DNA of 64,000 nt from Trileptium ribeirensis. Lineage: Eukaryota > Nematoda > Enoplea > Enoplida > Thoracostomopsidae. Shown here one piece after another: positions 1 through 21,912 of the stretch. Position 1 is the stretch's first letter. Every line of letters begins with the position of its first letter. The stretch spans positions 1 through 64,000 of the forward strand of contig JASANE010012710.1 of NCBI GenBank assembly GCA_030248225.1, in the 5' to 3' direction. The notes beneath the pieces were generated by a model that worked only from the letters and a program-made list of their open reading frames with translations, was not told the DNA's origin and did no database searches. Made by a program: the position numbers and the translations under genes.

Positions 1-13
1 GAGACCAGTTCCG

Positions 14-31
14 TGGAGATCCGACCCGGAT
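14..31 (+). other. Primer-binding-site-like sequence, left palindrome arm
   Basis: TGGAGATCCGACCCGGAT begins with TGG and is 18 nt long. Its complement reads as the last 18 nt of a tRNA: end of a T-stem, a 7-nt acceptor strand, a U discriminator and CCA. The same sequence occurs inverted at 5649-5666 and 25146-25163. Here it points toward the palindrome centre, as it would downstream of a plus-strand LTR ending just left of the window. Confidence 0.55.
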
Positions 32-1635
32 CCACGGACTTATGAGAGAATAAGTAGGTACGTAAATCAATAAAATACAGTTGTTAAAATAACTTCACGA
101 ATATTGAACATAAAATTATATATAGGGCATCGTTGCAAATCCGATACCCGAGGCTTTAATTTAAGCCCTAACCGGTCCCGCTGCGCCCACTTTTAGGTAC
201 CCCATATGAAGATTTTAGAAATAACGCCCCGACAGGCGTGTCACCCCTCATTAGACTCCCCTTGTTGAGATTAGCCCAAAAATATATAGAACACCCCAGA
301 AGAGTACGCCCTGAACCCGCGATGAAATCCTTTAAACACCCTACCCGCGAGAAAATTCGTCATGGACCCTCTCCCGAAGAGCTCATTTTCCCCCTGTAGT
401 ACGAATACGGTCCGGTTATATACGATCTTAACTGAATGGCTTTGGGCTTGTAGTCCGCAATCCGGTGTGGTTTGGCACTCTGGCCATTCCCCAGGGAACC
501 TTCACCTTTTCTACACCTTTCCCTCGCTTTTCTTTTGTTTTGTTGAATTAAGCCTATTTTTTATGGAAATCGTTTCTAAAACACAATTTATATAAAATAA
601 GTGCTATTATTAAATTTGTATAAAGTTGGCTGAAAATTGTTAGCGGTTAGTAAGCATTTAAGTGGACCAAGCGAATTTGAAATTTATATAAAGCATTGTA
701 CGAAAGTGGCGGTTTACTATACGTTTATTAGCCGCCCGTCAAGCTAACTGCGTCAGCGAATATGACTGATAACGTCGGTTAATATCAATTTGGTATACAT
801 TTTATATAAAATTGATACTGCAATCCAACAGAGTCCTTATCAGTTAACAAAGAATATACTTGAACATAGTACTAAAACTGTTCGGACGGTCCAAGAGGTT
901 GTTGTCGAGAAAATAAGCTTGACCTCGTCAAGTTTGTAAACATTTGTATTAAGCTGTGCGAACCAAGTATCTTTTAATATTAAACTTATAGCCGCTTTGA
1001 GTAAATAAACGCTTTAATATTGAATCTATATAGAAGGTGACCACTGCATCTGTACAGTGAGTAAACAAAGCTCGTTTTTACTGTTAGCTTCATATAACTT
1101 CTCTACCTGGATTCTTATAGAGTTATTAGCCGAGATTCTTATCACTCGTTAGCAAAGTAATATAAAAGTTGCAGGGACCACCGTGACTACGTTTAATATA
1201 AACGACCCTGTAAGCTTAGTGTTTGTTTAACGCAAAGCTAGTAGTAGAAGTTTGGAGGAATTTTCTCGTCGGTACAGCATACTTCGATGTTAAAGCTGGG
1301 TTTTACCTCGTGTTTAGAGTATTGGCTTTGCAGTAGCTTAAATTTACAAAGGCGTATATTAATTTTACTAGAGTAATAAAACGTTTTCTTATATAAACTT
1401 TAAGTAATTTTAGACATCAAATTTGTAGAAATATGATCGGAATTCGTTCCGATAAGAGTATTTATTTAATTAAGTAAGATTTCGTATAAAATCGGTCCGA
1501 AATTCATCGAAAATCGGACCGATAAGATTGTTTGTTTTGATTAAGCGAGGTTAAATCAGGATAAATCGGACTAAAGTGCTGAATAAGCACTCTAACTGTC
1601 CGAAAGTTCAAAAAATTCAAAAATTTGAAATCCAG

Positions 1636-1673
1636 TATAAAAGCAGAACTGCAAGAAACTGACAGCGTTCAGT
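1636..1673 (+). promoter_or_regulatory. Possible core promoter in left palindrome arm
   Basis: TATAAAAG at 1636-1643 is followed 35 nt later by TCAGT (1669-1673), an arthropod or retroelement-like initiator. An AATAAA lies about 440 nt downstream at 2109. The order resembles the U3-R part of an LTR. No transcript evidence is available. Confidence 0.35.
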
Positions 1674-2108
1674 ATGACTTCGACAGCGCAGAGGTCGTTC
1701 GGTTTGCAGAACGGCTCTGGCGCTCTTCGGTTTTCCAGTGTTTTTGCTTATTGATGGCTTAGTATTTACGATTGGTTTTGCGCTTTGGTTCGTGGATGGA
1801 TGGATGCGTGCGATGGACGACCGTGGAACGAAGGACTGTAAGTGTGGACAGGGAGGCGGTTAGGGTAACCGTATACTTTCGACAGGTAGATTCAAAGCTC
1901 GATAGTTAATTCGTAAGATGAAAACAGCACGGCAGTAAGCGTATCAAAGTACAGTGTTCTGCCTCCCCTGTCCACACTTTCCCTTTTACATGATAGCCCT
2001 GCCCGTCCTAGCTCGTCCCAAGGATCCACTGTCACTGTTAGCCGTTTGCACTTAGATCAATCCCGAAGTCATACTGGACCTCCCTCGGTCATTCAAGATT
2101 AGGACACA

Positions 2109-2131
2109 AATAAAGCGTAACACTTACGCTT
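2109..2131 (+). terminator. Possible poly(A) signal with hairpin, left arm
   Basis: AATAAA at 2109-2114 is followed by a perfect 8-bp stem with a 3-nt loop (AAGCGTAA, CAC, TTACGCTT). The unit is conserved in mirror image in the other arm. It may end a transcript started near 1671. Confidence 0.35.
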
Positions 2132-3550
2132 AGACTTAATTTACATGCTCCCCTGAGCCTGAGTTAGGATCGAAAAGTTTGAGTATTGAGCTGACCGAGG
2201 TTAAACAAACATTTTACATGAAAATATATTGGCTAAACAAGACGTCTCGACTAGTACTCCCGAATCATCCACGGTCACGCACGCGTTTTACTCAGCCGTT
2301 ATCAAAGTTCATTTGCAAGGTCTTACGCGTTTTTACGGTTTTCTGGACGCGGAGCCGTCCATACGTGTTCTCGCTGTTTTGTTAATAGGGATTTATCAGT
2401 GTTTGTGATTAGTTTGCTCTGGGAGCTCAGCTAAAAGTTTGGCAATAATGCAGTATTGATGCAGGCCTTATCTGTACGCGGAAAGTTGCGTTAAACCGCG
2501 AGGTAAGCATATTGAGTTACCGCCCTGCAAGTGAGACCGCCCGCCCATGTAAAAAAGTCGAAGTACCTTAAGAATTTCTTCCAGATACTCGGTTAGAAAT
2601 ATCACTCTGATCCTTACGAGGATCCGAGCTATGAATTAGTACCTAGCACGTTCAAATATCACATTGGGAATACAAACCCGACGACCCTAAAGGGGCCCGT
2701 TCCCACCGAAATGTGAAACTTTGAGTATCTTAGGATCTACTCCAGGAATATAGCTGAAACCTTGGCAGTTTCTTCGTAGGACTGTTCACTCACGAATAGG
2801 ATTATAAACGTATTCTAGCGATACGTTATTTTTTTTTTGTCTTGTGCGTGTACTTCGTTACGGTACATACCTGTAAGATATTTTATAATCCTATTCGTGA
2901 GTGAACAGTCCTACGAAGAAACTGCCAAGGTTTCAGCTATATTCCTGGAGTAGATCCTAAGATACTCAAAGTTTCACATTTCGGTGGGAACGGGCCCCTT
3001 TAGGGTCGTCGGGTTTGTATTCCCAATGTGATATTTGAACGTGCTAGGTACTAAATCAATAGCTCGGATCCTCGTAAGGATCAGAGTGATATTTCTAACC
3101 GAGTATCTGGAGAAATTCTCGAGGTACTTCGACTTTTTTACATGGGCGGGCGGTCTCACTTGCAGGGCGGTAACTCAATATGCTTACTCGCGGTTTAACG
3201 CAACTTTCCGCGTACAGATAAGGCCTGCATCAATACTGCATTATTGCCAAACTTTTAGCTGAGCTCCCAGAGCAAACTAATCACAAACACTGATAAATCC
3301 CTATTAACAAAACAGCGAGAACAGATGGACGGCTCCGCGTCCAGAAAACCGTAAAAACGCGTAGACCTTGCAAATGAACTTTGATAACGGCTGAGTAAAA
3401 CGCGTGCGTGACCGTGGATGATTCGGAGTACTAGTCGAGACGTCTTGTTTAGCCAATATATTTTCATGTAAAATGTTTGTTTAACCTCGGTCAGCTCAAT
3501 ACTCAAACTTTTCGATCCTAACTCAGCTCAGGGAATCATGTAAATTAAGT

Positions 3551-3575
3551 CTAAGCGTAAGTGTTACGCTTTATT
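3551..3575 (-). terminator. Possible poly(A) signal with hairpin, right arm
   Basis: Mirror image of the unit at 2109-2131: AATAAA on the minus strand at 3575-3570, then the same 8-bp stem-loop. Confidence 0.33.
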
Positions 3576-4010
3576 TGTGTCCTAATCTCAATGACCGAGG
3601 GAGGTCCAGTATGACTTCGGGATTGATCTAAGTGCAAACGGCTAACAGTGACAGTGGATCCTTGGGACGAGCTAGGACGGGCAGGGCTATCATGTAAAAG
3701 GGAAGTGTGGACAGGGGAGGCAGAACACTGTACTTTGATACGCTTACTGCCGTGCTGTTCCATCTTACGAATTAACTATCGAGCTTTGAATCTACCTGTC
3801 GAAAGTATACGGTTACCCTAACCGCCTCCCTGTCCACACTTACAGTCCTTCGTTCCACGGTCGTCGTCCATCGCACGCATCCATCCATCCACGAACCAAA
3901 GCGCAAAACCAATCGTAAATACTAAGCCATCAATAAGCAAAAACACTGGAAAACCGAAGAGCGCCAGAGCCGGTCTGCAAACCGAACGACCTCTGCGCTG
4001 TCGAAGTCAT

Positions 4011-4048
4011 ACTGAACGCTGTCAGTTTCTTGCAGTTCTGCTTTTATA
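4011..4048 (-). promoter_or_regulatory. Possible core promoter in right palindrome arm
   Basis: Mirror image of the promoter at 1636: TATAAAAG on the minus strand at 4048-4041 and TCAGT at 4015-4011. The two promoters face each other across the loop. Confidence 0.33.
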
Positions 4049-5648
4049 CTGGATTTCAAATTTTTGAATTTTTGAACTTTCGGACAGTTAGAGTGCTTAT
4101 TCAGCACTTTTAGTCCGATTTCTGATTTAACCTTGCTTAATCAAAACAAACAGTCTTATCGGTCCGATTTTCGATGAATTTCGGACCGATTTTATACGAA
4201 ATCTTACTTAATTAAATAAATACTCTTATCGGAACGAATTCCGATCATATTTCTACAAATTTGATGTCTAAAATTATTTAAAGTTTATATAAGAAAACGA
4301 TTTATTACTCTAGTAAAATTAATATACGCCTTTGTAAATTTAAGCTACTGCAAAGCCAATACTCTAAACACGAGGTAAAACCCAGCTTTAACATCGAAGT
4401 ATGCTGTACCGACGAGAAAATTCCTCCAAACTTCTACTACTAGTTTTGCGTTAAACAAACACTAAGCTTACAGGCTCGTTTATATTAAACGTAGTCGACG
4501 GTGGTCCCTGCAACTTTTATATTACTTTGCTAACGAGTGATAAGAATCTCGGCTAATAACTCTATAAGAATCCAGTAGAGAAGCTATATGAAGCTAACAG
4601 CTAAAACGAGCTTTGTTTACTCACTGGACAGATGCAGTGGTCACCTTCTATATAGATTCAATATTAAAGCGTTTATTTACTCAAAGCGGCTATAAGTTTA
4701 ATATTAAAAGATACTTGGTTCGCACAGCTTAATACAAATGTTTACAAACTTGACGAGGTCAAGCTTATTTTCTCGACAACGACGCTACTTGGACCGTCCG
4801 AACAGTTTTAGTACTATGTTCAAGTATATTCTTTGTCAACTGATAAGGACTCTGTTGGATTGCAGTATCAATTTTATATAAATATTATACCAAATTGATA
4901 TTAACCGACGTTCTCAGTCATATTCGCTTTGTTGACACAGTTAGCTTGACGGGCGGCTAATAAACGTATAGTAAACGGCCACTTTCGTACAATGCTTTAT
5001 ATAAATTTCAAATTCGCTTGGTCCACTTAAATGCTTACTAACCGCTGACGAAGTTTCAGCCAACTTTATACAAATTTAATAATAGCACTTATTTTATATA
5101 AATTGTGTTTAGAAACGATTTCCATAAAAGATGCGGCTTAAGTAAACAAAACAAAAGAAAAGCGAGGGAAAGGTGTAAAAAGGGTGGAGGTTCCTGGGGA
5201 ATGGCCAGAGTGCCAAACCACACCCGGATTCGGACTCAGCAAGTCCGTCCGGTTAAGATGATATGTAACAGGACCGTATTCGGTCTACAGGGGGAAAATG
5301 AGCTCTTGGGAGAGGGTCCATGACAAATTTTCTCCGGGTAGGGTGTTTAAACGGTTCCCGTGGGTTCAGGGCATACTTTTCTGGGGTGTTCTATATATTT
5401 TTGGGCTAATCTCGACGAGGGGAGTCTAATGAGGGGTGACACGCCTGTCGGGGCGTTATTTCTAAAATCTTCATATGGGGTACCTAAAAGTGGGCGCAGC
5501 GGGACCGGTTCGGGCTTAAATTAAAGCCTCGGGTCTGGGGATCCCAACGATGCCCTATATATAATTTTATGTTCAATATTCGTGAAGTTATTTTAACAAC
5601 TGTATTTTATTGATTTACGTACCTACTTATTCTCTCATAAGTCCGTGG

Positions 5649-5666
5649 ATCCGGGTCGGATCTCCA
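5649..5666 (-). other. Primer-binding-site-like sequence, right palindrome arm
   Basis: Minus-strand TGGAGATCCGACCCGGAT directly follows the inner end of the LTR at 5667-7745. A genuine 3' LTR should not be followed by a primer-binding site. Its presence means this LTR also acts, or once acted, as the 5' LTR of the palindromic unit. Confidence 0.6.
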
Positions 5667-7745
5667 CGGAACTGGTCTCATTAGAAAGACCGTAAAATTT
5701 CCTACAAGAAATGTTGAGTACAAAATTTCGGAATTCCCAACGGTTCCGGAGTTATGGGCCGGAGCCGATATTTTCGACACCAAATTTGCTAACTTTTCTA
5801 ATTTTATTTCTTATCTGAACCAGCGAAATTGAACGCTGGTAGGTAATATTTCGTAATGTTATACCAATTACCAGTGTAGCGAGCACTGGTAAATTTTATA
5901 TTTTTGATTTCCTCTTATAATTTTCAAGAAATTGTCTCAATCGCTGTTCGCTCTCGGGCGGACAGCCACATCTTTGTGGTCCTCATTCGTGAGGACGGTC
6001 GTGACGGGTATCCGGCACGGCCAGTCATTCCGACAACGATTCATAACCAACTTTGTGGTCCTACCATTCAGGGCAGGGCAATTTCTACTGAGTCCACTTG
6101 TACTGGGTTCAGCGGGGGAGTCGTACAGTCCTAAAATTCCCTGCAAATCGAGTATGGCAAGGGCTCGCCATACTCGCGTTCAGCACCTGTAAAACACCAG
6201 CTTGCAGGCGTAAAATCTCTAAAATTCCTCCTAAAAACACGTCAAATACGTTACGCTCTATGGATCATACTTCCAACCTAAAAATTACAAAAATGTAACA
6301 AAATATGACAACCAAGGTGCACAAAGTCATGGTAAAACGCAGGCGCTTTTATGGCCTGATCAATCCAATAAACAGTACAATTACAGCACGAAACGATCAT
6401 AAAATAGTATGCAATGGTAACAACAGGGCGGCGCTTTTATGGCCTCGTATTATAACAATGAACGGTATGAATATAATATAGCATTCAGACACAAATGGTT
6501 AACAATCATTATCCCGATCAATTTGCTGGATTTGTACCTGAAAATATGTATAGACAACAACATCGATTCAACGGTACACAATTATACAAATACGATCCTG
6601 ATAGTATATGTATATACTGAACGCGTGCCTTTATGGCCACAAGAAGTACCACAACATGATATCAATTGTACGTAATCCAAACATATACCAATGATGCTTT
6701 TATGGCCAACGATAATATGATAGAAGTCATAACAATGCCAATATATATATACATATATACCCAGGCGTGCCATCGGGGCACTACAATAGATGGATACAAA
6801 TACCTGTATATACGGTTACGATTCCTTGACAAATATCCATCCCTGAAATAGCAATAACGATACCCATTTTGATCAAAAATGTCGGCGGTGCAGGCCGAAA
6901 TACTAAAAATACGCGTCGGTTACATAGCGGGACTATTTGGGCCTAATTATTCCGTGTATCTTTATATAGATGTACCTGATACCATTGAATTTGTTTCAAT
7001 TACGTACATATATATACTTTGGTTTTAATTCTGTCTCAATTATTAATATGTACCTGATAAGTTCTGGTTCGTCGTAATTACGTACTTATATAGCTGTATC
7101 GATCTTGCGAATCATTTCAATTACTGGTTTGCGCATATAAAATGGTTCGAGGTGTGTGCCAGTTAGGCAGTCTACATATGAAGTGACAACAGGGCTGTAT
7201 GGTCGATGGTATATATACACTCAATATATATATTTGTTTGCGCCAAGAGGCGATTAATTGATTCTGCTTACATAGGTGTACATATTATAAAGCGAGGGTG
7301 GGTTCCGTTCCCTTTTGGGCTATTCCCGTTGGGTGTCCCAGGTTGGGGAGACACTGGGGCTGAATTCGGAAATGTTGGCCACTATACATGTGGTCATGAT
7401 TATTAGGGAACTCAACTAAATGTTGACCATTACACTATGGACAGGATTTTCGGTACTCGGAAAAATGTTGTCCATTATACTGTGGACAGGATTTTTTGGT
7501 ATTCGAAAAAAATGTTGTCCATTATACTATGGACATAATTATTGGTGGTCGAAAAAATGTTGACCATTGCACTGTGGCCAGGTTTATTTTTGTTCGAAAA
7601 AATGTTGACCATTGGGGTGTGGTCGGAATTATCGTAAAAGTTGACCATTACTATGTGGTCAAGATTATGGGTTCTCGATAAAAGTTGGCCATTAGGCTGT
7701 GGTCAGGATTATCCACCTCGTAACGATCCGTAAGGATCTGTTACA
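5667..7745 (-). repeat. 3' LTR (shared with palindrome)
   Basis: Nearly identical to 25164-27254, with a few substitutions and small indels. On the minus strand it starts TGTAACAGATCC at 7745, which is a normal TG start. No matching CA end is obvious before the primer-binding site. It contains a hairpin array (7371-7712), TA-rich microsatellite stretches and four copies of a GC(C/T)TTTATGGCC motif near 6343, 6431, 6625 and 6693. On the minus strand that motif reads CCATAAAAG or CCATAAAGG and could serve as a TATA-like element. Confidence 0.9.
7371..7712. repeat. Array of eight covarying hairpins in LTR
   Basis: Eight units spaced about 36-48 bp (starts near 7375, 7423, 7468, 7515, 7560, 7605, 7641, 7685). 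Each has the form TTGnCCA, 7-8 nt, TGGnCA. The two arms pair, and the variable base changes on both sides in several units: TGTCCA/TGGACA in units 3 and 4, TGACCA/TGGTCA in unit 7, G.U-type pairs in units 1 and 8. Units 2 and 5 have one mismatch. The array lies in the first 370 bp of the LTR on the coding strand. Confidence 0.85.
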
Positions 7746-9683: not shown

Positions 9684-10859
9684 TCAATATTTTCTTTGTA
9701 ATTGGTCTTCCAACCAACGTCTCAAATTGTCGGCGAAATGCTCACTAATTACTGGTTCCCAATTTTCATTTACATAGCTTTTGGTACAGTCCCACGCAGT
9801 AGGTGACTGTAATTCCGAAGAAAACGACGGCCTATGCATACTTACTTTGCTTAGCATATGAGGCTTATTTCGCTGAAATTCGGCATAGGCCTCCTGAAAT
9901 TCAGTCGACCAAGCCGTCATATCCGATACAAAATTCCAATACGGTGGGGGTGGCATTACAATAGCAGTAGCAGAGTCTGCTAGCAGATAATCAAAGGTAC
10001 ACAGATAATGTCTCAGTCGCCGTACAACATGGCGAGGAGAGTCCAACGGGTGCTTTTCCCATGTTTTCTTTCGCAAGGCAGATAAATATCCGCCTATTAT
10101 GACAATAGCTTGAGTTTGTGGGGTTGCCAAACAAACAGCCATTCGGATAAGAAATTCCATAGTTGCTTTTGGCCAGCTATGGACGAAGTAATCTGGTCTT
10201 TCGTTGAGTTTTAACAACGAGGCGGCGGTAGCATCGCCGAGAATTATAGTGGTGGGCCATGAGACGATTCCGCTTTTGTGGAAGGTGCGAATTTCTTGTA
10301 ATAATCGTCCCATCACATTGTGACAATTTCTTGGGCGACGGCCCATTTTAAAATCCTGAGGTCCAACGCCTATGCCCCAGAAGCTATCGGAAGGATTAGC
10401 TTCCAGAAGCTGGGCTTCTCCTGTGGATAACAGTATATGTTTTAAGGTGGGCAGGTCGAACTTGGGCAATAATACGGTTCGCATTAGATGAGGCAGGACG
10501 GGGCGAAGAAGTTGGGCATTTACCTCGTCCAAAAATTGTTGTTTATTTCTTCGGGCAATGGATTTGACATCTCGAGCTCCCAATCGAAGATCTTTGATAT
10601 CTTGACGGGCTTGATCCTCGTTAAAAAGATAGGTAACGAGTAATTGATATCCTTGTTCTGTGGAATTGTATTCGATGGGATAATGTTGAATTGTTTGATC
10701 GAGGGCGGCCATGTTCGACAACATAGGCCAACGAGTGCCTTTGGAAAGAAAGATTTCGATCGGCTTCGAATAGTCGATGAAATAATACGGCACGGAAACG
10801 GAATTTTCATGCGATTTGTTGATACCAGCGTATCGCTTCGGTCCTTTGAGATAATTCAT
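9684..10859 (-). CDS. NADAR (YbiA/DUF1768-like) domain protein of the retroelement
   Basis: A 391-residue frame, the last coding unit before the 3' LTR. Residues about 25-192 follow the NADAR pattern: LSNM at 47-50 (family SNF), STEQGYQ at 67-72 (family S.EH.FQ), KFD at 133-135 before a helix, TGEAQLLEANPSD at 146-158, FWGIG at 160-164, then N181, MG at 183-184 and IR at 190-191 (family WG.G..N.LG..L...R). NADAR proteins are N-glycosidases acting on ADP-ribose-type linkages; bacterial members act in riboflavin-intermediate removal or remove ADP-ribose from DNA guanine. Residues about 200-390 form a second domain with ILGDAT, VIIGG and PPPPYW, faintly like an SGNH hydrolase without its serine. 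The frame is the same as pol; three stops (11085, 10896, 10860) separate them. The first ATG at 10859 may not be the original start. Confidence 0.82.
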   Translation of the reverse strand: MNYLKGPKRYAGINKSHENSVSVPYYFIDYSKPIEIFLSKGTRWPMLSNMAALDQTIQHYPIEYNSTEQGYQLLVTYLFNEDQARQDIKDLRLGARDVKSIARRNKQQFLDEVNAQLLRPVLPHLMRTVLLPKFDLPTLKHILLSTGEAQLLEANPSDSFWGIGVGPQDFKMGRRPRNCHNVMGRLLQEIRTFHKSGIVSWPTTIILGDATAASLLKLNERPDYFVHSWPKATMEFLIRMAVCLATPQTQAIVIIGGYLSALRKKTWEKHPLDSPRHVVRRLRHYLCTFDYLLADSATAIVMPPPPYWNFVSDMTAWSTEFQEAYAEFQRNKPHMLSKVSMHRPSFSSELQSPTAWDCTKSYVNENWEPVISEHFADNLRRWLEDQLQRKY

Positions 10860-11084
10860 CTAGAATTTAAATACTTCGTCATTACTGACGGTTCTTCAGG
10901 GCGATTTTGGGTCGGAGCTCGAGGTTCGTAACGGGATTAGTGTTATTTCAGCGCTGTCAGGACGGCTATTGTCGTCCTCGACGGGGCGGTGGTCGCGGTG
11001 TTTGAACGGTTTGGAATCCAAAGTCTTCAGGGCGTAGTGGTCTACGTCCCCATGGGTAGTTCGGGGGGTCGGAATTCTTAGCAT

Positions 11085-14000
11085 CTAAATAGGGCGAATA
11101 CACGTTCGGGTTTGTCGGAAATATCGAAATGATATGTTCGGAAGGAAAAGACACCACACCCCACCAGGTTGATCCATAAAGTCTAAATAAGGTGAATACA
11201 TTGTTCGGCTGCTTGCTTGTCTGCTGGAAGGGTCGACTCGCGTCGGTGGTTGGACAGGGAAAGTTTGCCTTCGACCGGCACGGTCTTCATTAGGTCGCTG
11301 GGCCGTCCTACGGAAGGCTTCAGCGGTCGGAATTGTATCGGGTGGTTGAAAACGACGTTCATGGGCTTGTCTATGCGGCATTTCACGGCGGTTAGTTGGT
11401 ATATCCTGTCTTAAGACAGGTTCACTTCTTCTAGTTACAGGTATTGGGTATTTCTGACTGACATCTTTCTGCGACATGATCGGTTTACGTAAACTATAAG
11501 CATTAGTTCCCATTTTAGGTACCATTGACGATCCAGCTCTGGTCCAAGTAACATTAGTTGCGGTTTGCGTATGCCTAAGTGCGGCAGTACTTGCGATTAC
11601 TTGCTTAACATTATTAATAGTGCGCGGTTTTGCGTGTGTTCCACGCTGCGATGCAGGTTCTTGCCTGCGCGTATGACTGCGTTGCGGCGAAGCGGTTGGG
11701 GTAGGTTCATCATCACTGAGTACTCGTGCTATTCCTTGTCTAATTCTGTTTAACTCGGTTTCTGATTCTTCTGATGCACTTTCAATTACTACTCTTTGTT
11801 TTGGAGGTCGACCTCGGCGGATCTTAGTAATTGTCTCCTCCAGGAGCGGTTGTACTTGTTCATGTAAATAACGTGCGGTTTCGGGTACAGGTGTTGTGCT
11901 TCCTGCAAAGTGTTCTAATAATTCAATGGCAGCTTGAGAACTACTCTCGGTTCCTTCTAATGCTCTGCATCTTCGTTCCTCTTCCTCAGCTAAGAAGTCT
12001 CGTATGACTTCTTCAGCTATCTTTCTCCTAGTATGTCTTCCCATAAATGCTGTTTCTGGTATGTGAGGGTCTCTTGTGTATACTGTTTCTGATTGTCTCG
12101 GTGGTTTGGGAGGTGGTTCAGCTTGAGTATTTCGAGATCGTAGATGGTAAGGTCCAACATGATCATCTCTAAATGGTGGAGAGAATGGTGTAGGTCTCAC
12201 GGGAGATAAGTCATCCGGTGAGAGCAATCGACTAAATGAACGAGGTTGCGTTACATGTACGTTGGGTTCAGAATCCATTGAAGCGTTACTAGAGTAATTC
12301 TGGTACAAGGAATCATTAGGGGACGGTGCACGATATCGGGGAATAGGTTCGCCTTCTGGTATTCCAGGAAAAGGCTTGGGTTGTATAGGTTCTTCACGGA
12401 ACTTATATTGGGGTAGCGCTGATACAGGTGCATCCTGTTCAGGGGTAGTAGCAAATGCGGTATTTCCTCGCATTGTGGTAGTGGCCGTAAGTAGTGGCTC
12501 ACTTGGTTCAGGTGAATCCATGACCTGTTCGGGGTGTACGCCAGCGGGATAATCGGGCGTCGGTGCCCAAGTGGCAGCTAATTCTAAATCGCAGCGGTTA
12601 TACGGGCTAGTTGAATACGGGGGCGTCCGGTGAGGGAATTGTTCGTCCTCAGCGGGTAACAAATATGGAGTCTTCCGGTGAGGGTATTGTTCCTCCTCAG
12701 CGGGTAAAGTAACTTGGGGCGTAAGGATCGGGTTTCCAAACTCATCGAATCCTTCGAAATTAGGTGATAATAATTCATCGGTTCGGCGGTATTCTTTCCG
12801 CGTTATAGGTACTGTATGTTCGCCATATTCAGGCAGAGGACCAGTATAGTTATCTGGCAAATAAGGTAATTGAGATGCGTTTTGAGTAATAAGCTCTTGA
12901 GAAATGCCGGGCCAATCACATTGAGGGGTCCGGTTGGGATCAACAATAGGTAATCGGTTAGGTACATTAGTCTCCATGGCGGCTAAATGAATATCAGCTT
13001 GTGCTTGGGTTAAATTCGCTGCGGGCTCAACGTCATCCGCAGGTTCGGTTTCATCCGCTTGTTCGCGGGAATATTCAGGAGCAAGTGATTGTCGCATTTC
13101 AGCGATTGATTCAGGGTCCGCGGCTTGGACTTCGCGGATAAACAGACGATCGGCGTTGATCGTTTCAGTGGGATGTTCCAATGGGGTTTGCAATTGTTCA
13201 TCAGGTACGTCCTGTGAAGGATCTTCCATACCTGGAAAAGTACGCAGTGGGCGATAACAGGGTTTAGTACGATTAAAATGCACAAGATGCCTTTTTGCTT
13301 GACTTTGCGCTGTAAGGCGTATTTGGAGACATGGCGGTATGACCTTTAATATTTGATACGGTCCACACCATCTTTGTTCTAGTTTACGCGATAAACCAGG
13401 GGTCGTGTGGTATCGATACACCCACACTTCATCTCCAACTTTATATGGAGGAATTTTAGTTTTCCGGTTATAATACTGCTTACGGTATTCACGGGCGGCT
13501 TGCATCGAACGGTATGCATTTTCTCTAATAGTGGCAAGCCATCTTTGTACATTAGTAAGATAAGCTTCAGCTCCGGGGTATTTTTCCCAGTCAGCTGGCG
13601 AGGAGATATCTCCTGGTACTCTTTGGTAATATCCGTACATCAACAGAAACGGAGGATATCGGGTAGTTGAATGCACTGACGAGTTATAAGACATTATGCA
13701 ATAAGGTAATAGTTCATCCAAGGTTGTATAATCATCAGACGGTAGGGCTGCTCGTAACAAGAAAAGTAGGCTGCGAATAAATCTTTCTATTTCGCCATTG
13801 GCTTTCTGATTATAACTTAGCGTTTCACGCTTAAAGGTACGTAATTCAGCACGTAAGGCTTGCATGAGGTCGGAAATGAAACATCGACCTTGATCGGATA
13901 CTAATTCAGCAGGTGCGCCATGTCGGCATACAACTTCTTTGATAAATACTTGGGCTATAGTGCGAGCTGTTTGGTTAGGTATGGCGACGGCGACAACAAA

Positions 14001-15470
14001 CTTCGTAAATTGACCAATAAAAGCAAGTACGTACTTATTTCCAGTACGGGATTCAACTCGGATATCAAGGATGTCAACGTACATCCGATGCATAGGGGCG
14101 CTGGCTTGAGGTAGGTCGCCTAGGGCAGCTCGGACATTCTGAGGTAAGTTACGAGACTTTTGGCAGGTTACGCATCTCTTCACATAATCTTCAACATGTT
14201 TACTCATGTTTTCCCAATAATAAAATTGCTTCAGTTTACTCATAAATCTATCACGGCCTGGATGGCCTCCAAATAGGGTATCGTGCTCATGCTTCAAGAT
14301 ATGGGGAATAAGTCGACGAGGAACACAAAGTTTCGGGCGATGATCATTTGGTAAGATCGGGTGCAGATATAAGATTTGTGTCGTAGGGCAGATGCGATAA
14401 TGATGTGATTCTAGTTTGACTGTGACAGCATTTTTAGGTTCTTCAGGAAGAGTTCCTTTCTGTAAATATGTTCGAATAGGACCAAACTTGTCGTCTTGTT
14501 GTTGTAATCGAGGAATAATTGTTACTAAGTTCTTATCTGGTTCTTGGCTAAAGTGTGGTAAGTATAAACCTTCTCCAGTGTCTTTCACTTGTTCGGGTCT
14601 TAATAGGACCATAGGGCTTTCACAAGCATATCCTACTTTAATTAATGCATCGAAAGTTTTTTTCTCAGGTATTATTGCTTGGGGTTGGTTTGCGGGAGGA
14701 GGGGGATCCTCCTGAGGTGGATCGGGTGCACTTGAAGGACCAGGGTTTTGTTCGCTAGGACCTGGTTCAGGGCTTCCTATAACTCCTGAGCCTACGATGA
14801 CATATTCTTGGGGATTACTAACTATTTCGGGTTCACCGTAAGTATCTAATATTCTCCTGCGTAATCCTTCTGTCAGTTTAGGCACTTCTGCATTAGGCAT
14901 CATTTGTTGCAATTTCTTAAGCGTCCGTTTAACGAACTTATCGTTAGCGGCCCTCTGTTCAGGGGTTTCATCCTGCCTTTTGCGTTTAGAACCATTTTTA
15001 CGTGACAACATTGCCACTCTTTTACGGTATTCCTCTTCTTCATCCTGTTCTTCCTCATTGTCTGAGGACAATGGAGTTTCTATATCGTGTTGTGGGTCTC
15101 TCGAGAGAGCATCAGCGTTTGCATTGGCCTTTCCAGGCCGGTAGGTAATATCAAAACCACCAAATTCCATTAATAGTTCGTTTCTCCATTGGGCCAAGCG
15201 CGAGTTTCGCGGAGGCCGGTCAAAAAGAGCCTTAAGCGGCTTATGGTCAGTTTCTACGTGGAATTCATGTCCTAATAGGTAATGTTTAAAATGCTGCGCG
15301 GCCCAACGTATGGCGAAAGCTTCGGCTTTGTGGTAATATCCAACGAGACCTAGAAAACTTTGGAGTTGTTTAAGGGTTTCAGGGCGTTTATAGTTATCTA
15401 TTGCAACCGTCTTTTCAGGGTCAGGTCTTACTCCATCAGAGCTTATAATGTGACCTAGATATTTGAGTTG
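11085..15470 (-). CDS. pol: Pol C-terminal part: RNase H remnant, integrase, long tail
   Basis: Open from just after the stop at 15471 to 11085, in frame with the protease-RT part. It starts with the end of the RT connection, then jumps from a FLGLVGYY motif directly into the KAEAFAIRW part of RNase H near 15330. The thumb/connection remainder and the first half of RNase H with its leading acidic residues are missing. NADAL-type RNase H end follows. Counting from position 15197, the integrase zinc finger uses H305, H312, C342 and C345. The catalytic triad is D375, D435, E471 with 35 residues between the last two. GPY lies at 612-614. A 150-residue acidic, proline-rich linker precedes integrase. 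About 700 residues after GPY/F are low complexity, with a repeated PAE(D/E)EQ.PHR..PY unit near 12605-12715. No chromodomain is seen. Confidence 0.9.
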   Translation of the reverse strand, partial: QLKYLGHIISSDGVRPDPEKTVAIDNYKRPETLKQLQSFLGLVGYYHKAEAFAIRWAAQHFKHYLLGHEFHVETDHKPLKALFDRPPRNSRLAQWRNELLMEFGGFDITYRPGKANANADALSRDPQHDIETPLSSDNEEEQDEEEEYRKRVAMLSRKNGSKRKRQDETPEQRAANDKFVKRTLKKLQQMMPNAEVPKLTEGLRRRILDTYGEPEIVSNPQEYVIVGSGVIGSPEPGPSEQNPGPSSAPDPPQEDPPPPANQPQAIIPEKKTFDALIKVGYACESPMVLLRPEQVKDTGEGLYLPHFSQEPDKNLVTIIPRLQQQDDKFGPIRTYLQKGTLPEEPKNAVTVKLESHHYRICPTTQILYLHPILPNDHRPKLCVPRRLIPHILKHEHDTLFGGHPGRDRFMSKLKQFYYWENMSKHVEDYVKRCVTCQKSRNLPQNVRAALGDLPQASAPMHRMYVDILDIRVESRTGNKYVLAFIGQFTKFVVAVAIPNQTARTIAQVFIKEVVCRHGAPAELVSDQGRCFISDLMQALRAELRTFKRETLSYNQKANGEIERFIRSLLFLLRAALPSDDYTTLDELLPYCIMSYNSSVHSTTRYPPFLLMYGYYQRVPGDISSPADWEKYPGAEAYLTNVQRWLATIRENAYRSMQAAREYRKQYYNRKTKIPPYKVGDEVWVYRYHTTPGLSRKLEQRWCGPYQILKVIPPCLQIRLTAQSQAKRHLVHFNRTKPCYRPLRTFPGMEDPSQDVPDEQLQTPLEHPTETINADRLFIREVQAADPESIAEMRQSLAPEYSREQADETEPADDVEPAANLTQAQADIHLAAMETNVPNRLPIVDPNRTPQCDWPGISQELITQNASQLPYLPDNYTGPLPEYGEHTVPITRKEYRRTDELLSPNFEGFDEFGNPILTPQVTLPAEEEQYPHRKTPYLLPAEDEQFPHRTPPYSTSPYNRCDLELAATWAPTPDYPAGVHPEQVMDSPEPSEPLLTATTTMRGNTAFATTPEQDAPVSALPQYKFREEPIQPKPFPGIPEGEPIPRYRAPSPNDSLYQNYSSNASMDSEPNVHVTQPRSFSRLLSPDDLSPVRPTPFSPPFRDDHVGPYHLRSRNTQAEPPPKPPRQSETVYTRDPHIPETAFMGRHTRRKIAEEVIRDFLAEEEERRCRALEGTESSSQAAIELLEHFAGSTTPVPETARYLHEQVQPLLEETITKIRRGRPPKQRVVIESASEESETELNRIRQGIARVLSDDEPTPTASPQRSHTRRQEPASQRGTHAKPRTINNVKQVIASTAALRHTQTATNVTWTRAGSSMVPKMGTNAYSLRKPIMSQKDVSQKYPIPVTRRSEPVLRQDIPTNRREMPHRQAHERRFQPPDTIPTAEAFRRTAQRPNEDRAGRRQTFPVQPPTRVDPSSRQASSRTMYSPYLDFMDQPGGVWCLFLPNISFRYFRQTRTCIRPI

Positions 15471-18230
15471 TTACTGTCCAAACTGACATTTTGATGGCTT
15501 TAGCTTGAGGTTAGCTTTTCGAAATCGGTCCAATACAGTGACCAAGTCTACTAGGTGTCTATCAAAACTAGGGGAAAAGATCAAGATATCATCGATGTAT
15601 ATTAAACATCGTTCCCATTCTAGTCCTTTGAGTACTATTGACATGCATCTCTGAAATGCTCCGGGGGAAGAGTTTAAACCAAAGGGGAGAACGTTATACT
15701 CGTATTGTCCATGGACGGTAACGAAAGAGGTCTTCTCTTTCGTCTCGGGATCTAATTCAAGTTGCCAAAATCCTTTGTTCAAATCTAAGCTAGACATAAA
15801 TTTAGTGTCTCGGAGACATCCTAAAATATCATCAATTCGGGGTAGAGGGTATACATCTCGTTCGGCAACTAGGTTCAACTTGCGAAAGTCGACACACAGG
15901 CGTAATGTTCCGTCACTCTTGGTTACATATACTATGGGCGATCCCCATGGGGAATCTGAGGGTGTTAATCCGGCTTCAACCATGTTATTTAATTCTTCTC
16001 GGAGGGGTTCTCTCAAAGAGTGGGCAAGACGGTACGGAACTTGTTTAATCGGTCTGGCATTTCCAGTGTTAATTTTATGTTGATGTATGCCACATCGGCC
16101 TAGATCAAATGGATGTGTACTAAAGACATCCGAATTTTCTGAAATTACGGTTTTGAGTTGTCTCAACTGGAAGGGAGTCATAGAAGTGTTAGAGAAATTA
16201 ATCACACTAAGGATTTGGATCGAACGTTCATTGTCGATCGCTTTCTTTTGTTCATTAATAACTTGTACGACATTATCGGTTGTTAAGCCTAACCTATTAC
16301 ATTGCTTAACCCTTTTGGGCGGTCCTAAATTCAGTAGGAGATTATTTTGATCGTACAAGAGTTCAACTGCAGAGTCAACGAGGATTTCGATATGTTCTAT
16401 TGTCTGTCCTGCATGGATTGCTGTAGGGAGATTTCCAAAATTCATCACGGCTACAGGGATTAATCGCTGTCCGGTTAGAACCAGAGCGTGAGCGATTGCT
16501 AAATCAAAGATTAGTGGGTCTGGTACGAATAATGCTTGACCTATTGGAGGTTGTGCAATTTCCGTTATTGCATTAATAAATAGTTCAGTGTTAGGGGGGA
16601 CTTGAACGTATTGTGGACTGACGACATTGATTACGGGTGGATGATAATCTGCTTGGTCGGCAAAAGGCACAGAGCACTTCTCCGAACCATTGGATAGATC
16701 TAGACAACGGTCTTTAAAATTTATGGCAACTTGTGGTAAGAAGGCCATAAAATCAGTTCCTAAAATACATTCGTAGGGGGTGTCATTAGTGACTTGAAAT
16801 TCACAGGGAACCGTAAGGGTTCCTATGGTTATAGGCACCTTCACTACCCCAGTTATAGAAAGTTCTTGTTGCGTGGCAGAAACTATTCTCGTATTAGTAG
16901 ATTCGCGGGGTACTAGTCCTAGTCGGGCGGCAGTAGCCTGCGAAAGAATGGAGACGTCTGCTCCAGTATCGATAAGAGTATTTACGGGTGTTCCCAGAAT
17001 AGTGGTGTTTATAATCAATATAATCAATGGGGTATTATTAGCTTTAATAGAATTGACTCGTTTGGTTACAACACCAGTGCGAGATCTACTACGTAGTCGA
17101 CGGATGGGGTTAGCGAACAACTCTCCATCATCGATAAATACCATGCCCTCATCGGAAGGGGCGCCTGGAGTAGGGCGTTTCCTTGTATAACGACGCGGGG
17201 TTCTACTAGTTTTACGAGTCCTATCGGGAGATGGTAAAGAGGCTGTACTTTCAGCTTTCTGCAGCGGTGTCATAACATGTGCTTCGTCGGTGTTAGAAGT
17301 GGTAGATGCTTCGGGTGACGACATCATCCATTGGGCGGTCGGTGTTAGTTCGGTCGGGCGGTTATCCACTCGGCTTTTACCGGGGAACCATCTGGGTAAA
17401 CACTGTGTACATCGAAGAGGTAATTTACACTTATAGAGGCCATATCCTAGTACAATGATGCCTATTACTATAGTGATTATTGCGTACGGGGAGAGTCCGG
17501 TATACTCAAGTGCAGGGAGGGCTATAACTTTGTGTAACTGGTCCTTTGCTATTTGGGCTACCTGTAGATTGATTGCTTTAGCATTTTCTAACGAACTCCA
17601 TGTAAGGGGCTTTAGCTTGGTATTAGACAACTGGTCCAGGGAGATGTTAGGGCCAACTCTAACCATTAATTCCTCAGGCTGTAACATGCTTGTTAGCATA
17701 AGTGATCCTACAATCAACTGTGTGTAATTGCCATGTGGCATCCAAACGACTCCATGGTCGGGTACTACTCTACTTTGTCCTTGTGTAATATGTGCGAAAT
17801 GTCGTTTGTCCGTGATCACGAGTTTCTCCTCCGAAGTACGGAGCAAGACCCCTTGCATAGTAGTGTAGACATCGGTACCATTGTCAAGTGGTCCGATTAA
17901 AGAACGGTTTTGGCATTTTGATTTGGTGTACTCAGAGACGAGGTCACCTGAGATAATCCAGTCAAGGCAATGTATGCGTTGATCAATTACAAGCGCATGC
18001 GGTTCGCAAAAGGCAATGCCTGGACGGCGTTTACAAGCGGCTAAATTCCGTACTTCAAAGCGCGATGAAGATACGCGGGCTGCGTATTCTGGTAGCGGTA
18101 GTTTTACATGCGTTCTAGTAGCGGGTACATTCCAGCCAGTATTATATATGCGAAAATACGGTCTTACATCATTCGTAGTAGGTAAGGGTAACTGCAAAAT
18201 AAATCCAAATCGAAAAGTATTCAAATCCAC
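15471..18230 (-). CDS. pol: Env membrane-anchor region fused in frame to protease and RT
   Basis: A 919-residue frame. Residues 1-245 look like the membrane-proximal part of an Env glycoprotein, with cysteines and N-glycosylation sequons near 108, 117, 168 and 195. A hydrophobic segment at about 248-265 is followed by a Cys/Arg-rich cytoplasmic stretch. After a Ser/Thr/Arg-rich linker, an aspartic protease begins near 400 with DTGAD at 421-425 and ILGTDF near 489-494. RT occupies about 690-919 with LCVDFRKLN, LDLNKGFWQL, LPFGL and the catalytic YIDD at 878-881. The frame is also open upstream to a TAG at 18291 and beyond it. It ends at TAA 15471-15473 inside the KC.FGQ/LGH part of RT, and the same frame continues after that stop. 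Having Env before protease in one frame is not usual for Metaviridae or retroviruses. Confidence 0.88.
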   Translation of the reverse strand: MDLNTFRFGFILQLPLPTTNDVRPYFRIYNTGWNVPATRTHVKLPLPEYAARVSSSRFEVRNLAACKRRPGIAFCEPHALVIDQRIHCLDWIISGDLVSEYTKSKCQNRSLIGPLDNGTDVYTTMQGVLLRTSEEKLVITDKRHFAHITQGQSRVVPDHGVVWMPHGNYTQLIVGSLMLTSMLQPEELMVRVGPNISLDQLSNTKLKPLTWSSLENAKAINLQVAQIAKDQLHKVIALPALEYTGLSPYAIITIVIGIIVLGYGLYKCKLPLRCTQCLPRWFPGKSRVDNRPTELTPTAQWMMSSPEASTTSNTDEAHVMTPLQKAESTASLPSPDRTRKTSRTPRRYTRKRPTPGAPSDEGMVFIDDGELFANPIRRLRSRSRTGVVTKRVNSIKANNTPLIILIINTTILGTPVNTLIDTGADVSILSQATAARLGLVPRESTNTRIVSATQQELSITGVVKVPITIGTLTVPCEFQVTNDTPYECILGTDFMAFLPQVAINFKDRCLDLSNGSEKCSVPFADQADYHPPVINVVSPQYVQVPPNTELFINAITEIAQPPIGQALFVPDPLIFDLAIAHALVLTGQRLIPVAVMNFGNLPTAIHAGQTIEHIEILVDSAVELLYDQNNLLLNLGPPKRVKQCNRLGLTTDNVVQVINEQKKAIDNERSIQILSVINFSNTSMTPFQLRQLKTVISENSDVFSTHPFDLGRCGIHQHKINTGNARPIKQVPYRLAHSLREPLREELNNMVEAGLTPSDSPWGSPIVYVTKSDGTLRLCVDFRKLNLVAERDVYPLPRIDDILGCLRDTKFMSSLDLNKGFWQLELDPETKEKTSFVTVHGQYEYNVLPFGLNSSPGAFQRCMSIVLKGLEWERCLIYIDDILIFSPSFDRHLVDLVTVLDRFRKANLKLKPSKCQFGQ

Positions 18231-18290
18231 GTTAACTGGTAAAACTCGTCCAAATTGGTATTCTAAATTAGGTTCACGGGCTAAAATCGA

Positions 18291-18485
18291 CTAGGAAATT
18301 CTTGGATCCATTTCAAATAAACGTCTTAACATTAGGGCATCTACTACGGTCGGCGTTAATTCTCCGCTCAACATAGACTGCATTATAGCTTGGACGGACG
18401 ATCGAATGTTAGCTCGAACTGTATGGGTTAGCAACATCTGGTTCACTTGCTCTGTGTTGTGAGCATCTAACCTGTTCTACCACAT
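18291..18485 (-). pseudogene. env: Env segment in the pol frame, before a TAG
   Basis: Downstream of the frame change near 18485, the pol-phase frame is open and encodes a plausible helical Env segment until TAG at 18291-18293. The open frame then resumes into the anchor region. The frame change and the stop are each single events. Confidence 0.5.
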
Positions 18486-19044
18486 CAACTACTTCTTGCA
18501 TACTATGGTGTAGGAATGCATATAACTCTTCGTTAGCTTGGGTCAACTTCTTGATTTCCTTCGTATTACGTAGGGTTGCTTCCAAAGTATCTCTCATATA
18601 TGTTCTTATAGCGTGCATTTGGTTTCCCATATTATGTATGTGAATGCCATTGGAGATGGACATTCCCATTCCTAAAAATCCTGACACTGCTCCAGCGGCA
18701 GCTGCAATAAGCGTAACGAAACGCTTACTCCTCTTAGGGTCGTTATGACAGAAATGTAGGTTTTTGTCACAGAATGAACGCATAAGGTTCGAATAGTAAC
18801 TAATATCTAGAACTCCGTTGTAGGTTCCACTTAACTCTGCTCCTAATTCTCGCATGGTTTTGTACAACTGCGGGTCAGTGGTGCAATTGCTCCAGTAGCA
18901 ACAATCGGATGAACACGTGCAATCCGCATTGTATAGTAGGCAAGGTGTAACTTCGTCTGTAGGGGCTCTCATATCTGGTCTCCAATGTCTTAATGTTAGC
19001 TGTAAAACTACGGGTAAATAGGTGAGTTGATCTGACGTGATCAT
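18409..19044 (-). CDS. env: Env-like fusion glycoprotein, ectodomain with furin site
   Basis: A 211-residue frame. Residues 30-100 are cysteine-rich with an NCT glycosylation sequon. KRSKR at 104-108 is a furin-type site. It is followed at once by an Ala/Gly-rich hydrophobic stretch (about 109-128), as expected of a fusion peptide, and then by a helical region (about 135-190) that looks like a heptad repeat. This is a class I fusion-protein layout with a short N-terminal subunit, resembling baculovirus F and errantivirus Env in plan. The start at 19044 follows two codons after an in-frame TAA at 19051; upstream of that stop lies a likely signal peptide. Near 18485 the meaningful frame changes by one base and continues toward the membrane anchor. 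These breaks show the gene is not intact in this copy. Confidence 0.8.
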   Translation of the reverse strand: MITSDQLTYLPVVLQLTLRHWRPDMRAPTDEVTPCLLYNADCTCSSDCCYWSNCTTDPQLYKTMRELGAELSGTYNGVLDISYYSNLMRSFCDKNLHFCHNDPKRSKRFVTLIAAAAGAVSGFLGMGMSISNGIHIHNMGNQMHAIRTYMRDTLEATLRNTKEIKKLTQANEELYAFLHHSMQEVVDVVEQVRCSQHRASEPDVANPYSSS

Positions 19045-19050
19045 TAGTCC

Positions 19051-20085
19051 TTAGGGTTCCACTACAACTCCTACTTGAGAGTTCACTACTACTCCTAGGC
19101 GAGATATTTTCTCGCTCATTGGTGTCGAAACTGCATGAGTGGTTGAAAGCAATGCCAACCACATAACTAAGAGAATTCCACAAATACCGTTGACTAAGGT
19201 GCTAGTCCTGTATCCAACTAATGGAGTAGACGCGACTGGCGTCTGTTGAAGTTCCTCGGGGACTGGTTCTAATCCTACTTCATCCTGACAGGGAAGACTT
19301 ATCTCTTTGTTAATCGGATCGTTATCCGTTTCAGGGTCGGTGTCCGTTTCATCTAGATATTCTTCCATCGCATCAGCTATCTGCTGATCGAGGTCTTCTA
19401 CTGAGGTGCTTCGTAGCGGAGCTTCACACGTTAACACGGCTACTGGGTGTCTTAGTAATTGTAGCTGGGCTTTTATCAGTTTCTGGCGATCCTGTCTAAG
19501 AGACTCATTCTCAAACGTGGTACGTTCAGTTATATGCTGTACCAATTCATTTACTGGAATACCTTGGGTACCTTGACTGCGCAAAATAGTATCCAGCAGA
19601 TAAGGAACTTGTACAATCAATTCATGAAACTCCAAATTGCTACTGCGATAACTTACTCTTGCTGACTGGGTTCCTAATCCTATAAAGTATGACCAACGAG
19701 GCCAAATGGTTGCATCTAAATCGATAAAGGCACAACTGGTAAATAAGGTTCCTGTGTAACTCCATCTTCCATAATATCCATCAAAATAACATTCACTCTC
19801 GGGGAGAATTAAGGGTTTAGATTGATCAAGATTATTTTCTCCACACTTCAGACAAGCGGGTCGGTAACTTAGCTGAGCCTTATAGGTTTCCTTCATGACT
19901 TGGCGGAGCGTGTGGCCATTCACGCATTTACCCACCAACTCTAAAAGAAGTTCCAAGGAGGCTAGGGCCACGATACTTACGTAAATACCTGTGGTTCGGT
20001 GTTCTATCGGTGAAACTACACCTAATAAAAACAGTTGCATCCCTTTTAAGTTCTGGCTGGCTACATGCATCCGAACGTATTTCAA
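19051..20085 (-). CDS. Env leader and unknown N-terminal domain
   Basis: A 344-residue frame in phase with the fusion ectodomain. Residues about 15-50 are hydrophobic and could span a membrane. A CLKCG motif and further cysteines, tryptophans and tyrosines follow, then a helical part, then an acidic stretch near 235-265. Residues about 297-318 form a strong hydrophobic segment ending in an AxA-like small-residue motif (STTHA), which I read as the signal peptide or leader of the Env ectodomain. The frame ends at TAA 19051. I do not recognise the 50-235 region. It overlaps the end of the frame at 19928-20485. Confidence 0.6.
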   Translation of the reverse strand: MKYVRMHVASQNLKGMQLFLLGVVSPIEHRTTGIYVSIVALASLELLLELVGKCVNGHTLRQVMKETYKAQLSYRPACLKCGENNLDQSKPLILPESECYFDGYYGRWSYTGTLFTSCAFIDLDATIWPRWSYFIGLGTQSARVSYRSSNLEFHELIVQVPYLLDTILRSQGTQGIPVNELVQHITERTTFENESLRQDRQKLIKAQLQLLRHPVAVLTCEAPLRSTSVEDLDQQIADAMEEYLDETDTDPETDNDPINKEISLPCQDEVGLEPVPEELQQTPVASTPLVGYRTSTLVNGICGILLVMWLALLSTTHAVSTPMSEKISRLGVVVNSQVGVVVEP

Positions 20086-20485
20086 ACAGTCGAGCTAGAT
20101 TATTCAGTTGTTCTATTACGATAAGGGTACGTCTATAAAAGAGAATTCTTGGTTGTGGTAAGCAATGCCATTCTAGGCCTAAACATTTGTCGGGTATCAT
20201 AAACTCTGCATTTTCCATTCGTCTTTCGTCTCGGTCTCCTGGATTGGGTTGAAATGGAGCAAATTCGATTCGTGGATAACGGTACTTCATCATCTTCATT
20301 TTCTCACTAGGAATGGTGAACATGTAGTCCGGCCCTAACAGTTGGTTACGTTCTTCGTTCGTCATCCCTCTCAAAGTTCCAAACTCAATAGGTACATTAT
20401 TATCAAGGTCCATTCGAAATAGCTTATACAAGCGTTCGTCCAATTCACGTAAGCGTGTCGTTCTTTCCTCATTCATATATTCCAA
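19928..20485 (-). CDS. Unrecognised open frame upstream of Env
   Basis: A 185-residue frame, charged at the N-terminus, with several Met/Arg/Tyr-rich stretches. It starts (non-ATG TTG at 20485) inside the end of the acidic frame and overlaps the next frame by about 160 bp. Residues 1-150 have the look of real coding sequence; the last 45 are probably out-of-frame reading past a frameshift. No family recognised. Confidence 0.45.
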   Translation of the reverse strand: MEYMNEERTTRLRELDERLYKLFRMDLDNNVPIEFGTLRGMTNEERNQLLGPDYMFTIPSEKMKMMKYRYPRIEFAPFQPNPGDRDERRMENAEFMIPDKCLGLEWHCLPQPRILFYRRTLIVIEQLNNLARLFEIRSDACSQPELKRDATVFIRCSFTDRTPNHRYLRKYRGPSLLGTSFRVGG

Positions 20486-21500: not shown

Positions 21501-21912
21501 CCGCAGTTTCCTTAACTAATTTTCGCGAACTCAACGGGTTTAAATCAGCAACATCCACAGAATCACCAACATCAACAGTGGTTTCAACAACATTCACAGC
21601 AACAACATTTGAATCAACAACCTCAACAACATCCACTGCATTATCACCAACAACATTTGAATCAACAACAGCAACAACATTCACACAACAGTTCGCTTTA
21701 ACATCATTAACAGGACCGTCGTTTCGCGCTCCAACGACGGGAGATGCAGACTCACCGAGGGTGGAAGAGTCAAATTCTATCACCTCATCTACTTCGACGG
21801 TGGACGCAATTGGAACCTCACAGTGTTTCGATCGGTCAAATTCTATCACCCCATCTACTTCACTCCCATGTCTGGATGGACCCCAGGCAATCATTTCAGC
21901 CCCAACGATCAC
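21352..21912 (-). CDS. Val/Asp-rich repetitive open frame
   Basis: A 186-residue frame in the gag phase, overlapping neighbours in another phase. It is built of repeated VVDSNVV, VIEFD and similar units. It contains CPCGG near the end. Such composition can keep more than one frame open by chance, so its reality as protein is uncertain. Confidence 0.3.
   Translation of the reverse strand: MIVGAEMIAWGPSRHGSEVDGVIEFDRSKHCEVPIASTVEVDEVIEFDSSTLGESASPVVGARNDGPVNDVKANCCVNVVAVVDSNVVGDNAVDVVEVVDSNVVAVNVVETTVDVGDSVDVADLNPLSSRKLVKETAVDPPCPCGGREQVAYCLTDETSTIIGSKQSYISTCLGSVQARSRSIAVP

Follow-up and report, generated by a model that had tools for sequence, protein, structure and literature searches.

A NADAR gene fused to an SGNH-like domain in a Ty3/gypsy-type retroelement of the nematode Trileptium ribeirensis

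What use would a retroelement have for a NADAR gene? The question is raised by a 64,000-nucleotide stretch of Trileptium ribeirensis DNA (contig JASANE010012710.1 of assembly GCA_030248225.1, positions 1 to 64,000; hereafter the window), which contains a 21.6 kb Ty3/gypsy-type element with an additional open reading frame (ORF) at its 3' end. A preliminary description, made from the sequence alone, held that a gypsy-type retroelement here encodes a NADAR-family protein; Pfam match, predicted fold and element membership all bear this out. The domain, its predicted fold, its place in the element, the selection acting on it and its residue pattern are established. Regarding function, the most likely reading, held tentatively and with a little less than even confidence, is that the product would be a counter-defence or nucleic-acid-processing enzyme with an altered substrate.

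A NADAR gene at the 3' end of the element

9684-10859, minus strand: NADAR ORF, 391 amino acids (aa); NADAR domain at aa 45-192 (Pfam), SGNH-like domain at about aa 200-391
10860-10871, minus strand: splice-acceptor-like stretch TTTAAATTCTAG, abutting the ATG; putative function
5637-7745, minus strand: 3' long terminal repeat (LTR)
25134-27254, minus strand: 5' LTR

The NADAR ORF is one open frame of 391 codons, with its ATG at 10859 and an in-frame TAG directly 5' of it. As proposed, it is the last gene before the 3' LTR, since the intervening 1.9 kb contains no other minus-strand ORF of at least 100 aa. The four motifs ascribed to it occur in the expected order, namely SNM (aa 48-50), STEQGYQ (66-72), TGEAQLLEANPSDSFWGIG (146-164) and NVMGRLLQEIR (181-191). 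Scoring against PF08719 gives a match over aa 45-192 with E=2.4e-17 and 64.1 bits, as against a cut-off of 35.1, which is not a chance resemblance; the same profile is matched by 21 of 21 rows of the NADAR alignment at E up to 1. The predicted fold is likewise NADAR/YbiA-like. The retroelement protein is 22-23% identical, in the aligned part, to P. nicotianae NADAR (8bau) and E. coli YbiA (2b3w), from which it differs in having about 190 additional C-terminal residues and in lacking K50 and W89 (P. nicotianae numbering; see below). Retroelement NADARs form a single clade on a long branch in a 17-row tree (ultrafast bootstrap, UFBoot, 100). Neither the full ORF nor the NADAR part found a relative in protein databases, and the single protein found none in IMG/VR; a NADAR profile found three weak matches in IMG/VR.

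The C-terminal half of the ORF, overlooked in the preliminary description, is a second domain that resembles SGNH esterases, as judged from its predicted SGNH/GDSL fold. The catalytic Ser of SGNH block I is not conserved: among 39 retroelement places, position 210 is A in 30, N in 6, and T, D and S in one each. Four C-terminal halves were searched against Pfam at E values of up to 10 and matched no SGNH/GDSL family, the best match otherwise being DUF2093 at 0.067.

Copies of the gene

The animal's own genome (687 Mb in 20,229 contigs) was searched with the 391-aa protein. Because the best candidates alone were scored (106 of 2814), copy counts are lower bounds: at least 107 matches were found, of which at least 42 rows (41 places), at least 75% identical to the query, make up family A, and at least 65 rows, 55-59% identical, make up family B. 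At least 19 family A places cover nearly the entire query without a stop.

The gene travels with the element and is not tied to one host locus. The Pol tail lies directly upstream of NADAR in 28 of the 29 other family A loci fetched (L010-L038), on which ground the reading as a host gene is rejected; the remaining one, L019, has just 109 bp of element upstream. Downstream of NADAR, the element's internal 3' region is present in 25 of the 29. In family B, one copy pieced together from L043 and L040 again shows the order acidic ORF, env-like gene, protease (PR), reverse transcriptase (RT), RNase H, integrase (IN) and NADAR. The placement of the env-like gene before pol and the 3' NADAR gene are therefore common to both subfamilies. 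Membership of Ty3/gypsy (Metaviridae) is supported by the two LTRs and the order PR-RT-RNase H-IN, the latter found also in the family B copy.

Purifying selection

Open ORFs of at least 300 aa were found in 36 of the 39 places (all except L023, L027 and L028), and these, 28 from family A and 8 from family B, were used to estimate the ratio of nonsynonymous to synonymous substitution rates (dN/dS; NG86 method, pooled, no motif filter). In family A the ratio is 0.143 for the ORF, 0.102 for the NADAR domain and 0.152 for the C-terminal domain, and in family B 0.088, 0.066 and 0.091, respectively, with the proviso that choosing open ORFs biases these values toward constraint. In both families constraint is strongest on the NADAR domain. 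The neighbouring Pol tail has a ratio of 0.285 (22 family A copies, 231 pairs). When sequences were simulated without constraint, the ORF was still open in 171 of 3000 cases at 0.05 substitutions per site and in 7 of 3000 at 0.13. The NADAR gene is maintained by purifying selection in many copies.

These data bear directly on the idea of a passenger, i.e. a host gene captured once and carried along without function. Beyond the possibility of such a capture nothing speaks for it, and it is already contradicted by element membership and by the retention of the gene in both subfamilies, between which synonymous sites are saturated (0 of 184 A versus B pairs usable over the ORF), with dN/dS near 0.1 within each. 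We consider it extremely improbable.

Active-site residues

Residues were counted over the 39 retroelement places, with equivalences to the P. nicotianae numbering taken from sequence alignments. The distal ribose is bound by E43 and E125, and the pyrophosphate by K50, R79, W89, R93 and W133, plus D130 via a water molecule (PMC11543638). The E. coli C7 NADAR requires the counterparts of K50 (K95 there) and E125 for efficient hydrolysis; Arg can substitute for K95 in vitro, and at the counterpart of E43 Ala is accepted in vitro whereas Gln is not (PMC11543638).

In the retroelement proteins E43 is kept as E68 in 39 of 39 places, and E125 as E153 in 37, with one D and one gap, so that the Glu expected of the YbiA subfamily is present; the open copy L025 has a different residue at this position. 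Also kept are R79 (as R104, 39 places), W133 (as W161, 38 places; one C) and D130 (as D158, 37 places; one G, one gap). The R93 position is variable among all rows, retroelement and non-retroelement.

Some points weigh against the favoured enzyme reading. The equivalent of K50 and K95 is V75 in 39 of 39 places, where an active hydrolase should have Lys. The W89 equivalent, a Trp likewise expected of active hydrolases, is absent in 7 of 7 retroelement rows, a count that depends on the alignment. With both residues lost, ADP-ribose hydrolysis may be lost. The bias toward constraint brought about by the choice of open ORFs also counts against it. Both the K50 and the W89 equivalents are present in 10 of 10 non-retroelement rows, namely YbiA, the P. 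nicotianae protein, seven proteins of Polinton-like elements and a helicase-linked one. Taken together, the residues point to catalytic acids that are frozen and a pyrophosphate site that is partly remodelled. We read this as either a change of substrate or a loss of turnover, not simply the activity that the preliminary description had assumed.

Loss of turnover is the core of a second model, in which both folds are kept, hydrolysis is lost and the protein acts as an adaptor binding nucleotides, RNA or membranes. It would assist the element's RNA in export, splicing, packaging or transport, much as SNA-3 may do for nematode trans-splicing, and would parallel the role proposed for SGNH ORF1 proteins in long interspersed nuclear elements (LINEs). 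The loss of two pyrophosphate-contacting residues and of the SGNH Ser, despite strong purifying selection, fits such an adaptor. So does the finding that mutation of conserved NADAR residues impairs SNA-3, which is required for SL1 trans-splicing (PMC9303266), and the binding of phospholipids by the ZfL2 ORF1 esterase (PMC3905857). However, binding of another ligand would not demand the distal-ribose acids and the equivalents of R79, D130 and W133, which are kept nearly everywhere, nor does the model sit well with a NADAR domain that is the most constrained part of the ORF in both families. A pseudoenzyme of this kind, which ranks next to the favoured model, is a realistic, if doubtful, possibility.

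A third model is suggested by the YbiA-type catalytic Glu in 37 of the 39 places. By analogy with element-borne dUTPases, the protein would be a housekeeping N-glycosidase that, like YbiA, clears damaged nucleosides or riboflavin-pathway intermediates and so improves the nucleotide pool for reverse transcription. A smaller substrate would fit the partial loss of the pyrophosphate site, but the element offers no pathway context for such an activity, and we think this improbable.

Expression and possible role

The ORF is best explained as an accessory gene ("ORF3") fixed in a Ty3/gypsy lineage that has an env-like gene; its product joins a NADAR domain of the YbiA subfamily to a domain resembling SGNH esterases. 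As to its expression, the ORF start reads AG/ATG in 21 of 22 family A copies, mostly as TTTAAATTCTAG followed by ATG, and AA in the 22nd; these 22 are the copies retrieved by the exact start pattern among 29 searched. In 8 of 8 family B copies a CAG/GAA junction lies about 35 nt 5' of the ATG. These junctions look like splice acceptors, which would yield a subgenomic mRNA. ORF3s of LTR retrotransposons are typically expressed via spliced messages (PMC5408684). Translated from such a message, the protein would act in trans during the element's cycle.

In the favoured model of an enzyme with an altered substrate, the target of the NADAR domain would be an N-ribosyl conjugate, which it would recognise and probably cleave. 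Since the pyrophosphate pocket is partly remodelled, plain ADP-ribosyl-guanine is an improbable substrate. The conjugate might be added by the host to the element's nucleic acid, or might be a host-made defence signal. The SGNH-like half, without a conserved catalytic Ser, would serve binding or localisation. Counter-defence is suggested because there is precedent, both in bacterial antitoxins and in viral proposals, and because NADAR genes occur in several element classes (see below). The NADAR of positive-strand RNA viruses has been proposed to remove host ADP-ribosylation (PMC9503650).

Comparison with known systems

The preliminary description knew of no Metaviridae element with NADAR, which does not stand: such a Gypsy lineage of Ectocarpus is in print (PMC12477816). 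NADAR is reported there in Gypsy elements and in LINE ORF1, so that elements of this kind are known. The Ectocarpus elements (e.g. Gypsy-12_Ec32) are likewise Ty3/gypsy, with a YbiA-family NADAR conserved through the lineage; however, theirs lies in the N-terminal region of Pol, whereas that of the window element is a separate ORF after the Pol tail. Unlike the Ectocarpus lineage, the present element comes from an animal, has an env-like gene and fuses NADAR to an SGNH-like domain.

In the Vesta and Juno LTR retrotransposons of bdelloid rotifers, pol is likewise followed by an additional, enzymatic ORF that has a GDSL/SGNH domain, and their ORF3 types, as here, are common to unrelated retroelements (PMC5408684). 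In that paper's LTR ORF3s the SGNH residues are reported to be intact (absent in one Athena family), in contrast to the unconserved Ser of the present element; the word NADAR has 0 occurrences in it. Positive-strand RNA viruses and nucleocytoplasmic large DNA viruses resemble the element in carrying NADAR, presumed to answer host ADP-ribosylation (PMC9503650). The text of that paper contains none of the terms Metaviridae, retroelement, retrotransposon or reverse transcriptase; retrovirus occurs twice, in at least one case in a passage on 2H domains.

A search of the open-licence PMC literature for NADAR or YbiA together with retrotransposon, Polinton, integrase or gypsy gave, for retroelements, PMC12477816 alone among the matches listed. 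As far as literature searches can tell, the new points are a Gypsy-type element of an animal in which NADAR is a 3' ORF of its own, the joining of NADAR to a domain of SGNH type, the absence of two NADAR residues that contact the pyrophosphate, and Polinton-like elements with NADAR.

Organization of the element and its surroundings

The LTRs, 2.1 kb each, are 97.8% identical (32 mismatches and 14 gap positions across 2122 columns). The minus-strand order between them is gag, acidic ORFs, env-like gene, protease, RT, RNase H, integrase with a proline-rich tail, and NADAR.

24373-25053 and 22888-24372, minus strand: gag-like ORFs; the first weakly PNMA-like (E=0.058), the second with a CCHC zinc knuckle (E=1.9e-4)
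20469-22940, minus strand: acidic, repetitive ORFs
17427-20094, minus strand: env-like gene, before pol; RSKR site, hydrophobic fusion-peptide-like stretch, transmembrane segment at 17427-17495
16746-17009, minus strand: aspartic protease domain (gag-asp_proteas, E=4e-13)
15477-15923, minus strand: RT domain (RVT_1, E=3.3e-27); a stop interrupts the frame after the domain
15174-15332, minus strand: RNase H part (Pfam); about 100 aa upstream gone relative to family B copy L040
13842-14324, minus strand: integrase, H2C2 and rve core (Pfam)
11085-13841, minus strand: C-terminal part of the integrase, and the long proline-rich tail of Pol (ORF and Pfam)
51942-54847, minus strand: degraded second relative of the element's 3' half, with a decayed NADAR gene; 77-84% nucleotide identity in pieces

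The window copy is not intact. RT and the env-like gene are interrupted by stops, that of the latter lying between 19051-20094 and 18409-19050 with another break before 18290, and about 100 aa are lost before RNase H. No Pfam family exceeded its cut-off in 20469-21515 or 21909-22940, and neither a target-site duplication nor a tRNA primer site was recognised when the LTR edges were inspected by eye, one flank lying within a palindrome. The env identity of 17427-20094 is inferred from its features, there being no Pfam match; among PDB sequences the family B env-like ORF had no significant match. The site is RSKR or RREKR, with a fusion-peptide-like stretch and a transmembrane segment alongside. 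This gene has an unusual position: in the window copy it sits between gag and pol, and in the family B copy (L043:1935-4163) it precedes pol.

Among the other copies, L039 (a longer piece of L012's place) has lost the part from the env C-terminus to before the integrase (PR-RT-RNase H) and retains env, IN and NADAR. In L038:2765-3811 the Pol tail has a tandem duplication of about 590 bp just 5' of the NADAR gene. Positions 1-5679 of the window are a palindrome (arms 1-2808 and 2882-5679, 96.4%) that extends 43 bp into the 3' LTR and is either an inverted duplication or a fold-back assembly artefact. A long host-like ORF at 57299-58411, without a Pfam match, is reminiscent of SMG1. Elsewhere in the genome, L058 and L059 (C17193) are a nuclear insert of mitochondrial COX1. 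Read by eye at two spots taken as conserved, it is consistent with ATA=Met and AAA=Lys, a code that argues against echinoderm or flatworm mitochondria.

NADAR genes in other mobile elements

A Pfam search of the genome gave at least 150 NADAR matches (150 scored of 2317 candidates), all above the cut-off, with a top score of 140.6 bits. Twelve of the 150 were inspected, the best eight and four picked by hand. At eleven loci (L001/L041, L002-L008, L042, L053 and L054) a small conserved ORF lies upstream of NADAR, and ten of these have a packaging-ATPase-like ORF; the stretch of L006 runs into the contig start. A TATA-binding protein (TBP) gene adjoins NADAR in seven of the eleven (L042, L053 and L004-L008). 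Pfam identifies TBP firmly (1e-28, 1e-31), as it does an rve-chromodomain integrase in L042; for the ATPase its support is thin (Pox_A32 at its cut-off in L041). The end of the integrase-chromodomain gene is also seen in L053. Other ORFs, recognised by eye and with nil Pfam support, we take to be DNA-polymerase-like and hexon-like. On that basis we call the eleven loci Polinton/Maverick-like. With the retroelement, at least two unrelated classes of mobile element in one genome thus keep NADAR genes.

A TBP gene in a Polinton-like element is striking in itself. The loci without a TBP match in the stretch (L001/L041, L002, L003 and L054) make up a second ATPase-bearing DNA-element lineage with NADAR. 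The NADARs of L041, L002 and L054 have no Glu at the E125 position, and Phe for W133. In L052, the twelfth of the loci inspected, a 682-aa helicase-like ORF (motifs read by eye) stands directly 5' of a 241-aa NADAR ORF.

Implications

We know of no established role of nucleic-acid ADP-ribosylation against mobile elements in animals. In bacteria, nucleic-acid ADP-ribosylation is an anti-phage defence (PMC11543638), and DNA-modifying ADP-ribosylation activity exists in clams and pierid butterflies (PMC11209040). A broader and rather unlikely model would make NADAR a counter-defence module that unrelated selfish elements of one animal lineage share: the Ty3/gypsy retroelement with its env-like gene, both Polinton-like lineages and, perhaps, an element with a helicase. 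The host would mark foreign nucleic acid, or signal, by an NAD-derived modification undescribed in animals, and the retroelement version would since have gained a new substrate pocket and a dead esterase fold. The retention of NADAR by at least two unrelated element classes offers a concrete animal system in which to seek anti-element ADP-ribosylation, and the NADARs of this genome form a natural series, some having and others lacking part of the pyrophosphate site.
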